In this document: piece by piece, positions 8,796 through 17,684 of the stretch
Numbering within the stretch: the first letter of the stretch is position 1
Layout: each line of letters opens with the position of its first letter
DNA from: a virus
Direction: 5' to 3' (one strand)
IMG/VR virus record: IMGVR_UViG_3300006928_000096
Location: 1 to 23,000 of that record
Length of the DNA: 23,000 nt
The notes under the pieces: model-generated
Databases searched by the model: none
What the model was told of the DNA's origin: nothing
The model's input: the letters and a program-made list of their open reading frames with translations, nothing else
Translations under genes and position numbers: made by a program

Positions 8796-10814
8796 TTATA
8801 ATGATGCACCATCTATAATGTTTCTTTCTAATCCCTGAGCAGTAGTTACATCATTACTAACTACAAAGGCTTGAACAGGATCTTGATTTCCTAAAGCAGT
8901 TGCTATCTGACTTATACCAGATCCTCCAACTCCTGTTACTTCTGGAGGAGTAGATTCTACTGAAGGGCTAATTGTAGGAATTGTTGGAGGAGTAGATTCA
9001 GATCCTCTTGAACTTCCTCCAAAAGATGATGCTACTGTTTTCTGTTTTTTGATAGCAGCCATAATACCTGTTACAATACCAACTGCTGTTCCAGCATAAG
9101 CTATAAGGCCTGGAATAGCTGCTGGAAATCCTAAAGCTAGAGTTGCATTTAATCCTGATGCAGTATCAGTACCACTTTTAACTGCTTTCATTTGACCATC
9201 TACCATCATCATTGTAGCCTTTTGTTTTATAACGCCTAGCTCTATTAATAATTCTTGGGCAGCCATTAATTGTTTTGCAACTAAAGCAGCTTTACCTAAG
9301 GCTGATTCTGCTCCAAAAATTTGAGTAATTATATTAAGAGATTGTATCTTCATTGCTCTCTTTTTATCTTCAATTTTTTGAGCTTCAGCTAATTCTTTTT
9401 CTCTATCAGCAGTTTTTTTATCTGCTAGAGCTTTTTCTTTAGCATCATCTTCAGCATCATACTCAGCTTGTTTAGCAACTAAAGCCTCTCTTCTGGCTGC
9501 ATCTAATTCATCAGTTACTAGGTTTTGTTCTTCTGCTTGAAGTAAAAGATTTTGGAAATGTTCTTCAATCTTAATTAATTCTAAAGCTCTTTTTTCTTCT
9601 TTTGAAACAGCCTCAGCATCTCTTATTTGTTTTTTAAGCTCAGATAGTTTTTTAGCATTTTCTATTTCTTTAGCATCTGCCTCTTTTTGTGCTGCCTTTT
9701 CAGCAGCCTCTTCAGCTTTTCTTTCTGCTTTAGCCTCTCTTAAATTTGTAGTAATCTCAGCAGTAAGTGTTTTTTGTTTCTTTAATCTTGATGCCTCTAA
9801 TTCAATAACCTTAGCTCTTAATGCAGCCTCTTCATCTAGATCTTCTTTTGTAGATTTACTTAATGAATTTTCTAATGTCTTAGCATCAGCTCTTAATTTA
9901 GCTGCTTCAATTTCTTTAAGTGTAATTTCTTCTTCTATTCTACCTGCCTCTTTTAATGCTGCTATTCTATCTCCAATAGAAACATTTTCTTTATCAGCAG
10001 CTATTTCTCTAAGCTCATTAAATTTTCTAGTAGCCTCAGCTCTATCTATTTGTAATTGCCTTTCTAATTTATCAGCCTTTGCTCTAGCATCAGCAAGTTC
10101 TCCAGCCTTTTTAATTTCTTTTGAAGTTTCTTCTCCAAAGTTTTTAATACCTTCTGTTACTGCATTTATTGATTCTCTAGCTCCTTTAAAATCTCCTGAA
10201 AATACTTTGATTACTGCAAATCCAAAATCTGAAAGTATATCAGTAACATTTCCAATTACTACTTTAATTTGAGTAAACCATCTACTCATTTTATTTTGGC
10301 CCTCTTCTGATGAAGTTAATGCACTTGCTATACCAGCTATTGCTGCAATAATAGGTACTGCTACAAAAGCAACTGCTGCTAATCTAGCTAATTTTAAACC
10401 TTTAGCAGCTCCTCCAACACTTCCTGTAAAGTTTTTTGTAGAACTAATTAAGCCACCTGTTTGACTATCTAAAATACCTAATACTCCAGTATAATCAGCA
10501 GCATCTTTTTTAGATTTTTTAAGTGTATCATTGGCTCTTTTTCTGTCTTTGTTTACATCTTTAAGGCCTTGTTTTTCTTCTATTAATCTGTTTTTAGTTT
10601 CTTTTATTTTTTTGTTTAAGGCATCTCTTCTTTGCATTGCCTTGCCAGACATCCCCTCTGTTTCAGAAAGTTTTTTATTATATCCTGCAAGTTCTTTCTC
10701 AAGACCTGATACTAAATCTTCTTGAGCCTCAAAGGATTTATTAAGCTCATCTACATTAGCTTGAGCATCTTTAGTAGATACTTTTAATTCGTATGTTTTA
10801 GATACTACTGCCAT
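8796..10814 (-). CDS. Tape measure protein
   Basis: The protein has 672 residues. It begins MAVVSKTYELKVSTKDAQAN, typical of tape measures in which an early beta strand precedes long coiled coils. Residues about 20-110 are coiled coil. A hydrophobic segment at 142-166 (LARLAAVAFVAVPIIAAIAG) is followed by Ala/Glu/Lys-rich coiled coil from about 225 to 485. A second hydrophobic region lies near 550-590, then a Pro/Ser/Thr linker and a conserved-looking tail (AFVVSNDVTTAQ). This architecture sets tail length and can insert into the membrane at ejection. At about 0.15 nm per helical residue it implies a tail near 100 nm, so a siphovirus; that figure is a rule-of-thumb estimate. The start overlaps the upstream 46-residue gene by 10 nt. 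Confidence 0.85.
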   Translation of the reverse strand: MAVVSKTYELKVSTKDAQANVDELNKSFEAQEDLVSGLEKELAGYNKKLSETEGMSGKAMQRRDALNKKIKETKNRLIEEKQGLKDVNKDRKRANDTLKKSKKDAADYTGVLGILDSQTGGLISSTKNFTGSVGGAAKGLKLARLAAVAFVAVPIIAAIAGIASALTSSEEGQNKMSRWFTQIKVVIGNVTDILSDFGFAVIKVFSGDFKGARESINAVTEGIKNFGEETSKEIKKAGELADARAKADKLERQLQIDRAEATRKFNELREIAADKENVSIGDRIAALKEAGRIEEEITLKEIEAAKLRADAKTLENSLSKSTKEDLDEEAALRAKVIELEASRLKKQKTLTAEITTNLREAKAERKAEEAAEKAAQKEADAKEIENAKKLSELKKQIRDAEAVSKEEKRALELIKIEEHFQNLLLQAEEQNLVTDELDAARREALVAKQAEYDAEDDAKEKALADKKTADREKELAEAQKIEDKKRAMKIQSLNIITQIFGAESALGKAALVAKQLMAAQELLIELGVIKQKATMMMVDGQMKAVKSGTDTASGLNATLALGFPAAIPGLIAYAGTAVGIVTGIMAAIKKQKTVASSFGGSSRGSESTPPTIPTISPSVESTPPEVTGVGGSGISQIATALGNQDPVQAFVVSNDVTTAQGLERNIIDGASL

Positions 10815-16343: not shown

Positions 16344-16814
16344 TTAGCAAATAGTTATATCGTTATAAATAGTAATATCCATTGTAGCTGTAAATCCAGC
16401 TAATTGATTTTCAAACCTATCATAAAAAGGTTCTAGGGTTGGATCTGAATCTAACTGATATTGCTCAGTATGTAATGATCCTCTTCTTAATAATTGTATT
16501 AGTTTATTTAATACTCCTAATTGAGTATTTAGTATATCTTGAAGATTATTATTTCCTGTAAATATATCTACAGGTAAATCTTTAGATTCATTTACAATAT
16601 CCATAGCAAGTACACTAACATTAAAGCTCAGAGTTTGTTCTCCTACTACTACACTATTTACTATAATATGAGCCATAGGAAACATATCTTGCTTTCTTAA
16701 ATTAACATCTGATATATCTCCTGTAGTAACAGTATTAATACTTTGATCTTTAAGGAGCTGATCCTTTAAAGTATTTGTTATTTGGTAAAATCCTCTTATT
16801 CCCTGATTACTCAT
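16344..16814 (-). CDS. Tail completion/terminator-like protein
   Basis: The protein has 156 residues and no membrane segment. A pattern I recognise from Bacteroidota siphophage structural proteins is present: MFPMAHIIVNSVVVGEQTLS, FNVSVLAMDIVNESKD, DIFTGNNNLQDILNTQLGV and the C-terminal DRFENQLAGFTATMDITIYN followed by Asp-Ile-Thr-Ile-Cys. Size and position, next to the tail-assembly chaperone, fit a gpU-like tail terminator, but that assignment is inferred. The ATG at 16814 overlaps, as ATGA, the stop codon reached only by -1 frameshifting in the upstream gene. This supports the frameshift product and implies the two are translated together. Confidence 0.62.
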   Translation of the reverse strand: MSNQGIRGFYQITNTLKDQLLKDQSINTVTTGDISDVNLRKQDMFPMAHIIVNSVVVGEQTLSFNVSVLAMDIVNESKDLPVDIFTGNNNLQDILNTQLGVLNKLIQLLRRGSLHTEQYQLDSDPTLEPFYDRFENQLAGFTATMDITIYNDITIC

Positions 16815-17119
16815 TTAATTTTCTTTTTAATTTCTTTTGCCTCCAACTCATTTTTATCCTTCATATAAGATAACCAGGTAAAACATTTATGAACATTTAA
16901 TTTAGTGATATGTTCAATTTTTGTAATGTCTGATCCACATAATTCCCAAATCGCATTATACCATCCCCATTTTTTTCCAAAGTTAGATACTGCTGATAAA
17001 TCTCCCTCTGATCCCCCTCCTCCAAAGATTTCAGGATATGATTTGATAAATCCAGACCTAGTTTCATCAAAAAAAAAATTGATGAAGTAACAGCACTCAT
17101 AGGCATATCTAATAAATAC
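16811..17119 (-). CDS. -1 frame extension of tail-assembly chaperone, reached by frameshifting
   Basis: In the -1 frame, relative to the 217-residue gene, an open frame from 17119 to TGA at 16811 holds no useful start codon before the T10 run. Read from the slip at 17071, it gives FDETRSGFIKSYPEIFGGGG followed by SEGDLSAVSNFGKKWGWYNA, then IWELCGSDITKIEHITKLNV and HKCFTWLSYMKDKNELEAKE, in all 86 residues. A FGKKWGWY..I.......T+.......L..H.C..+L.Y.K.K.E.E pattern is one I associate with tail-chaperone extensions in Bacteroidota phages. The Gly-rich GGGGSEG makes a natural linker. The stop overlaps the next ATG as ATGA. The fusion (160 + 86 = 246 residues) would be the gpGT-type product. Confidence 0.72.
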   Translation of the reverse strand, partial: VFIRYAYECCYFINFFFDETRSGFIKSYPEIFGGGGSEGDLSAVSNFGKKWGWYNAIWELCGSDITKIEHITKLNVHKCFTWLSYMKDKNELEAKEIKKKIK

Positions 17120-17550
17120 TTATCATTCTCTACATTGTACTCATCAATAGCATACTTCTCTCCTATACTTGTAAGGATGGGCCTGTATAGTACATTCATT
17201 GCTTTTTCAATATTATCCCAATCTCCAATATATGTATCTAGATCTATATACTCTCCTAGTGTCATATCATCTAACGAAGGATGGAAACCATATTGAGTTT
17301 CTCCTAGTTTAAATTTTCTAACTAAAGAAGGCTTATCATTAAAGGTTTTATCTAATATGGAGGCTACCTCTTCTGAATCTTTATACTTCATTCTATATAC
17401 TTCTTTTAATGATACCTTACAAAAGATCTCAAGCATTTTAGCTCTTATAAATTTAGGATCATCATTTTTTTCTTGGATCTTTAAAAAGTGTTTATAATCT
17501 CTTAGAGAAACATCATCCATACTTCCAGGAATATCTAATTTTATTTTCAT
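16897..17550 (-). CDS. Tail-assembly chaperone, unshifted product (gpG-like)
   Basis: The protein has 217 residues from ATG at 17550. Features include YGFHPSLDDMTLGEYIDLDT (87-106), AMNVLYRPILTSIGEKYAI and DMPMSAVTSSIFFLMKLGLD near 148-167. I recognise the F.P.LD..T.GEY.DLD.Y...W....A+.VLYRP pattern from a protein next to tape measure and tail genes in Bacteroidota siphophages. In lambda-like systems gpG and its frameshifted gpGT coat the tape measure during tail assembly. Here residues 159-160 (two Phe) are read from the slippery T10 run; beyond it the zero frame continues for 57 residues (SNHILKSLEEGDQREIYQQY, then LTLEKNGDGIMRFGNYVDQT), which also looks coding. The gene follows a strong terminator and a TCGTTATA motif 5 nt before its ATG. 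Confidence 0.72.
   Translation of the reverse strand: MKIKLDIPGSMDDVSLRDYKHFLKIQEKNDDPKFIRAKMLEIFCKVSLKEVYRMKYKDSEEVASILDKTFNDKPSLVRKFKLGETQYGFHPSLDDMTLGEYIDLDTYIGDWDNIEKAMNVLYRPILTSIGEKYAIDEYNVENDKYLLDMPMSAVTSSIFFLMKLGLDLSNHILKSLEEGDQREIYQQYLTLEKNGDGIMRFGNYVDQTLQKLNISLN
17069..17078 (-). other. T10 slippery run, candidate -1 programmed frameshift site
   Basis: On the minus strand the zero frame reads ATT TTT TTT TTG across ten consecutive T, which satisfies the X XXY YYZ pattern as T TTT TTT. A -1 slip at codons Phe159-Phe160 joins the 217-residue gene to the extension frame ending at 16811. It is the longest T run inside a coding frame that I noticed in the window. Confidence 0.7.
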
Positions 17551-17563: not shown

Positions 17564-17584
17564 ATTTAATTGAACATTTTATTT

Positions 17585-17642
17585 AAAAAAAAAAGTAGGC
17601 TAAAGATACATAAACCACTCAGAAATTGTACCTCTGCCTACT
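17585..17642 (-). terminator. Long-stem intrinsic terminator with T10 tail before tail module
   Basis: On the minus strand AGTAGGC (17642-17636) pairs with GCCTACT (17600-17594). The stem continues as AGAGGTAC with GTATCTTT (two G-U pairs, one bulged A), giving about 15 paired bases over an 18-nt loop. A run of ten T follows. It would end transcription of the 105-residue gene and insulate the tail module. Confidence 0.78.
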
Positions 17643-17684
17643 AACCAAACAAACTAACCTAAACAAACTATGAATAAAAGTGGT

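Follow-up and report, generated by a model that had tools for sequence, protein, structure and literature searches.

Does a single gene in this viral DNA give rise to two proteins, and if so, what changes the frame in which it is read? The window, i.e., the whole stretch of 23,000 nucleotides that was analysed, carries on its minus strand a zero-frame gene of 217 amino acids (16897..17550; ATG at 17550, TAA stop at 16899-16897), which consists of an N domain and a 57-codon zero-frame tail and encodes the product named here "G-like". Within the gene lies the slippery run ATT TTT TTT TTG (17069..17078, minus strand), with exactly ten T (A10 on the plus strand at 17069-17078) and with both T_TTT_TTT and T_TTT_TTG in phase. 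From this run, the -1 frame is open to a TGA at 16813-16811. The resulting extension (16811..17077, minus strand) has 86 codons, or 88 if counted from within the run, and encodes a "T-like" C domain (FFF...GKKWGWY...HKCFTWLSY...) that every relative keeps, and only in the -1 frame. The zero frame continues past the run for 57 codons (172 nt including the stop), and this stretch (16897..17068, minus strand) is dual coding, with purifying selection in the zero and -1 frames. The stop of the extension overlaps the start of the next gene (ATG at 16814-16812) as ATGA (16811..16814, minus strand); the same junction is found in 256 of 399 relatives, and TAATG in 61 of them. The next gene (16344..16814, minus strand; 156 aa; phrog_30964, unknown function) is also the neighbour in a Flavobacteriaceae prophage. 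A preliminary description of this DNA had given the 217-residue gene, the ten T, the 86-residue extension and the ATGA overlap, all of which proved exact.

It is proposed that the gene yields two proteins with a common 160-residue N domain. The default product would keep to the zero frame and gain another 57 residues, and a minority product, after a -1 switch at the T9-T10 run, would end in the 86-residue C domain; as both share the DNA past the run, the 172 nt downstream would code for two different tails. The switch is inferred to result from RNA polymerase slipping on the A/T run and adding one U to some of the transcripts. That the frame changes, that relatives conserve this and that selection acts on both frames is demonstrated by comparative sequence analysis, while the explanation taken whole, with two products, dual tails, polymerase slippage and action like that of lambda gpG/gpGT, has in our estimate an even chance of being correct.

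The -1 relation of the two domains in relatives

Relatives were gathered by protein similarity alone, using either single domain (N or C) or a fused profile as query, and never by frame or by the presence of a T run. In its final form, the set consisted of 484 loci in which both domains were present, or 406 distinct sequences, the N domains of the most distant being only about 26-37% identical to that of the window. It takes in the cultured Nonlabens phages P12024S and P12024L, which have a T9 run, as well as Galbibacter pacificus, Flavobacteriaceae prophages and one prophage on a 3.9 Mb chromosomal contig. The C domain lay in the -1 frame in all 484 usable loci (484/485 before exclusion), and smaller earlier sets had given 160/160, 326/326 and 406/407 loci. 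None of the 484 loci presented a single frame without a slippery run, the finding that would have refuted the preliminary description, whose view of the extension as the normally used end of the gene was supported. Neither was any in-frame fused relative found on DNA among these loci, fused-protein and C-domain queries included. Two ORFs that overlap and are linked by a conserved -1 shift close to where the first one ends, the arrangement typical of lambda G/GT-type genes, are therefore seen here, with the shift sitting 57 codons before the zero-frame end, earlier than is usual for such genes.

Two records with T7/T8 runs were set aside, CP045836 (the sole frame exception) and NZ_CP040811. Both are long-read-like and show homopolymer errors at the run, and the N domain of one of them is itself broken by homopolymer indels, which was the reason for excluding them. 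They are deposited as "plasmids" of Lysinibacillus pakistanensis and Escherichia fergusonii, of about 66-67 kb each (CP045836.1, 27327-33818; NZ_CP040811.1, 27667-34199). Each has two matching places, and the phage that they carry, of flavobacterial type and marked by homopolymer indels, is almost the same in both. They look like contaminant phage assemblies with homopolymer undercalls. Proteins of 226-268 aa from uncultured phages in BFVD (A0A516L611, A0A516L5A8, A0A6J5SVK3 and others) resemble the N and C domain models within one ORF, and some distant relatives may, to judge from these, encode the long form in one frame without a shift.

The frame change and its conservation are, on this comparative evidence, a real and selected feature. 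That the true gene is one continuous frame obscured by a homopolymer sequencing or assembly error, which had been named as the main alternative and for which the errors in CP045836 and NZ_CP040811 provide a precedent, can be dismissed, since the same run is present in cultured phage, prophages and hundreds of contigs, the 484 other loci all agree, including cultured phage and the 3.9 Mb bacterial contig, and the zero frame past the slip is itself under selection.

The C domain could also be translated on its own, from an internal start or by re-initiation, in line with the annotation of gp39 of Nonlabens phage P12024S as a separate gene. Apart from this call by the annotators, the data do not favour an independent start: between the run and the W.WY motif, only 4 of 399 relatives offer a -1-frame ATG (56/399 if GTG is counted as well), on which ground such a start was rejected, and both the T run and the open frame leading back into it are conserved. 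This possibility is considered very improbable. The P12024S and P12024L proteins (Inhavirus; gp38-gp39 and gp40-gp41) have homologous N and C domains, the T9 run and the -1 relation, but their zero frame ends 77 nt past the run, before W.WY, so that the dual-coding stretch is shorter. In the annotations of these phages (NC_018271.1 gp38/gp39 and NC_018272.1 gp40/gp41), the adjacent "hypothetical proteins" are one frameshifted gene that was split.

Coding in two frames past the T run

About 400 of the 406 distinct sequences have a zero frame that remains open for 121 nt or more past the run (median 172), and in 398 it extends to 130 nt or more; in 401, the zero frame terminates before the -1 frame does. 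Four of the eight shorter cases reach a contig end, and four are true exceptions: one contig (+22 nt), P12024S and P12024L (+77) and one prophage (+121). The first of these is the sole contig with a zero-frame stop 22 nt past the run, and its -1 frame is intact.

The significance of this open frame was assessed by redrawing synonymous codons under a fixed -1 protein in 157 clusters and scoring the zero frame. The shuffles gave 3.3 zero-frame stops expected in the dual stretch, and the frame stayed open in 2.4% of trials per cluster; it was observed open for at least 43 codons in 156 of 158 sequence clusters. Synonymous differences, taken at conserved residues and read in the -1 frame, were fewest in the dual stretch (0.167), more numerous in the single-frame end of the C domain (0.268) and most numerous in the N domain (0.374). 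Of 98 non-overlapping pairs, 97 had a lower value in the dual stretch than in the N domain (Wilcoxon p about 1e-17); compared with the single-frame tail, the value was lower in 75 of 97. The open zero frame, compared with the shuffles, together with the depressed synonymous change in the -1 frame, indicates that both frames, and hence both proteins, are under purifying selection. Thus, the codon-substitution analysis in homologues that had been suggested for this locus revealed constraint in both frames, and the earlier proposal of dual coding over about 170 nt is upheld.

The relative weight of the two frames changes along the stretch. The first ten codons past the slip have the substitution pattern of a zero-frame gene, and the WGWY block that of a -1-frame gene; in the last ten dual codons (zero-frame LKISLN and the stop), the divergence at -1 wobble positions is 0.062, compared with 0.31-0.38 in the single-frame tail. 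As inferred from these patterns, the zero frame dominates just past the slip and at its end, and the -1 frame at the WGWY motif. This bears on the possibility that the zero-frame continuation is merely a passive, non-functional by-product of the -1 protein. Part of the zero-frame motif is indeed imposed by that protein (WGWY forces NGDG, and LN forces the stop). However, the expectation of 3.3 stops, with a probability of 0.024 per cluster of an open frame, and the zero-frame-like change of the first and last ten codons make such a by-product hardly credible, and they support the previous reading of the 57 residues as plausible protein. The match to phrog_32199 likewise reaches into the zero-frame continuation: it covers residues 3-171, past the slip, with 66.2 bits vs 59.5 for the fused product. 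In the AF2 model of the zero-frame product, the slip point falls inside a single helix (151-178), and confidence is low from about residue 180 onward; the AlphaFold model of the C domain consists of helices predicted with moderate confidence (mean pLDDT 75).

The third frame stops 0-4 codons from the run in 274 of 285 sequences. The stop mostly arises from TTTAGG, which is common to the zero-frame Leu-Gly and the -1-frame Phe-Arg, and a one-base deletion in the mRNA at the run would yield a product with the N domain only.

Gene context and proposed role of the two products

By the proposed mechanism, the two products would act like gpG and gpGT of lambda, in that the short form would coat the tape measure and the long form, through its C domain, would recruit the tail-tube protein, while the run length would set the ratio of the products. 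All of this is inferred, including the binding to the tape measure or tail-tube protein, and a tail-chaperone role of this kind is considered likely. The likeness to gpG/gpGT and to the conserved family of chaperone frameshifts (Xu, Hendrix and Duda 2004; reviewed in PMC5009743) consists of one gene with a short and a -1-extended product, a probable location in a tail module, conservation across diverged phages and an extension stop beside the next gene. The proteins of the flavobacterial phages differ in having no detectable sequence homology or PDB fold homology to the lambda-type chaperones. In lambda, the shift occurs near the 3' end of gene G, at the slip site GGGAAAG, whereas here the site is a T9-T10 run and both frames are open and selected for about 170 nt.

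The evidence from protein families is weak. The N domain belongs to phrog_32199, of unknown function, which was matched by 76/76 members tested, and the "tail protein" family phrog_166 gave a weak match in 15 of 76 members (best E 2.4e-4). The best named fold match is the tail assembly chaperone ctCpR1 in BFVD (E 0.05, prob 0.87), also weak, and no homology to a known chaperone was found by Pfam, NCBIfam or PDB in sequence and fold searches. Another weak fold match, gp10 of Flavobacterium phage 6H, was rejected, having neither a T9 run nor a convincing C domain. A search for phrog_38404 in Flavobacteriaceae genomes gave no match, but it was uninformative, as the control likewise matched nowhere.

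The gene order is common to the window and a Flavobacteriaceae prophage. The frameshift gene comes after terminase and genes of unknown function, and a putative tape measure protein gene (8796..10814, minus strand; phrog_32985), whose prophage homologue matches tape-measure PHROGs (E 2.7e-7), lies downstream on the same strand, not adjacent but with several genes between. The DNA just upstream of the frameshift gene (17570-17680, minus strand) can fold into a stable hairpin (MFE -22.4, z -2.7), behind which stands a second T10 run. This terminator-like combination suggests that the frameshift gene may begin a new transcription unit.

The lack of a PDB or Pfam match, the terminase and unknown genes that precede and the distance of several genes to the tape measure would also suit another assembly factor or a neck factor that happens to use a frame switch. 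We regard this as unlikely, though it cannot be set aside, as a short and a long form made by a -1 shift in the tail module is the hallmark of the chaperones, and the phrog_166 matches (15/76 members) and ctCpR1 as best named fold match, though at E 0.05, point the same way. The tail chaperone of the preliminary description is accordingly plausible from context and from weak family matches, but it remains unproven.

RNA polymerase or ribosome at the T run

The remaining question is how the frame is changed, and one feature that bears on it is the run itself; a search of relatives for its T-rich heptamer had also been suggested. Among the 406 distinct sequences, 255 have T9, 149 have T10 and two have T12, with none shorter, and the run occurs in all three codon phases. 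All 406 thus have the A/T homopolymer, at least about nine long, that programmed transcriptional slippage calls for. The longest T run elsewhere in the same ORFs is 2-8, mostly 4 and never above 8. If a denotes the number of T's at the end of the codon that precedes the two invariant TTT codons, and b the number at the start of the codon that follows them, then (a,b) is seen only as (1,2), (2,1), (2,2), (2,3), (3,0) and (3,1), i.e., with a+b of 3 or more. No relative shows (1,0), (1,1) or (2,0), the states in which 7 or 8 T would be enough to preserve an in-phase T_TTT_TTT. The codon of the following Leu is TTG/TTA in 88 of 88 cases with a<3 and CTG/CTC in 16 of 16 with a=3. As the choice of Leu codon tracks a, the total of nine T appears to be maintained from whichever side is available. 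On the tree, the flanking-codon state changed 22 times (2 for c4 not starting with T) and the run length 13 times. With so few independent changes, the nine-T argument is suggestive and not a proof.

The sharp floor at nine T is why we lean to polymerase slippage. A tract of nine A or T is known to cause efficient slippage of bacterial RNA polymerase (PMC5009743), and in a large proportion of bacterial genomes it is from this length that such tracts are seen to be selected against (PMC1088944). The known genes with transcriptional slippage (Shigella mxiE/spa13/spa33/mxiA, Thermus dnaX and Citrobacter tssM1; PMC4256274, PMC5009743, PMC1088944) likewise have a long A/T homopolymer, of nine in dnaX and eleven in tssM1, and two length variants per gene, with 15-55% slippage (PMC4256274). 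For tssM1, which its authors likened to gpG/gpGT, no SD or stem-loop stimulator was reported (PMC4256274, PMC5009743, PMC1088944). These genes differ in being bacterial and in that RNA heterogeneity was measured for tssM1 and dnaX, whereas slippage in the phage family is inferred from sequence alone; in the literature consulted, none is reported with a long dual-coding stretch.

The same two products and the same dual coding could, however, result if the ribosome shifted by -1 on the in-phase U_UUU_UUU (or U_UUU_UUG), as happens in the tail-chaperone genes of other phages. Ribosomal shifting is what lambda-type chaperones rely on (PMC5009743), and those of HK97-type phages do so at 6-7% (PMC3711429); in the literature searched, no tail-chaperone gene is known to slip by RNA polymerase. 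The in-phase heptamer X_XXY_YYZ is kept as T_TTT_TTT in every sequence. T9 in any phase holds one such heptamer, which counts against polymerase slippage, as ribosomal slippage is always possible, and hydrophobic flanking residues alone could add T's. On the other hand, seven T's would suffice for the ribosome, yet T7 and T8 never occur and nine is always reached from the available side. A stimulatory stem-loop or pseudoknot, or an upstream SD-like element, is common at ribosomal sites, although not obligatory, and none was found: stem-loops were not enriched (mean z 0.08 downstream and 0.21 upstream, with pseudoknots outside the model), SD-like words were at control level and Rfam gave no match. 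Ribosomal shifting thus remains a serious contender, if one held at somewhat less than even, and slippage by RNA polymerase is only narrowly preferred, a choice that the sequence cannot decide. For the preliminary description, this means that the -1 frame change is supported by the relatives, while the ribosomal slip it implied is not established, given the nine-T floor and the absence of stimulators.

Tail-chaperone frameshifting is textbook recoding, and its known sites lie near the gene end and are read as ribosomal. In this family, a strict floor of nine T goes together with a long tail read in two frames, and the combination is retained across highly divergent phages. The family is a clear case of dual coding being sustained in tailed phages, and in the default annotation of its members the C domain is split or lost. 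The about 400 sequences constitute a natural series in which polymerase and ribosome can be compared. It is possible, at a little under an even chance, that in a large and environmentally common clade of flavobacterial phages the ratio of two tail-assembly proteins is set by polymerase slippage on T9-T10 and not by ribosomal frameshifting, with both C-termini encoded in the same 170 nt and both frames under selection.
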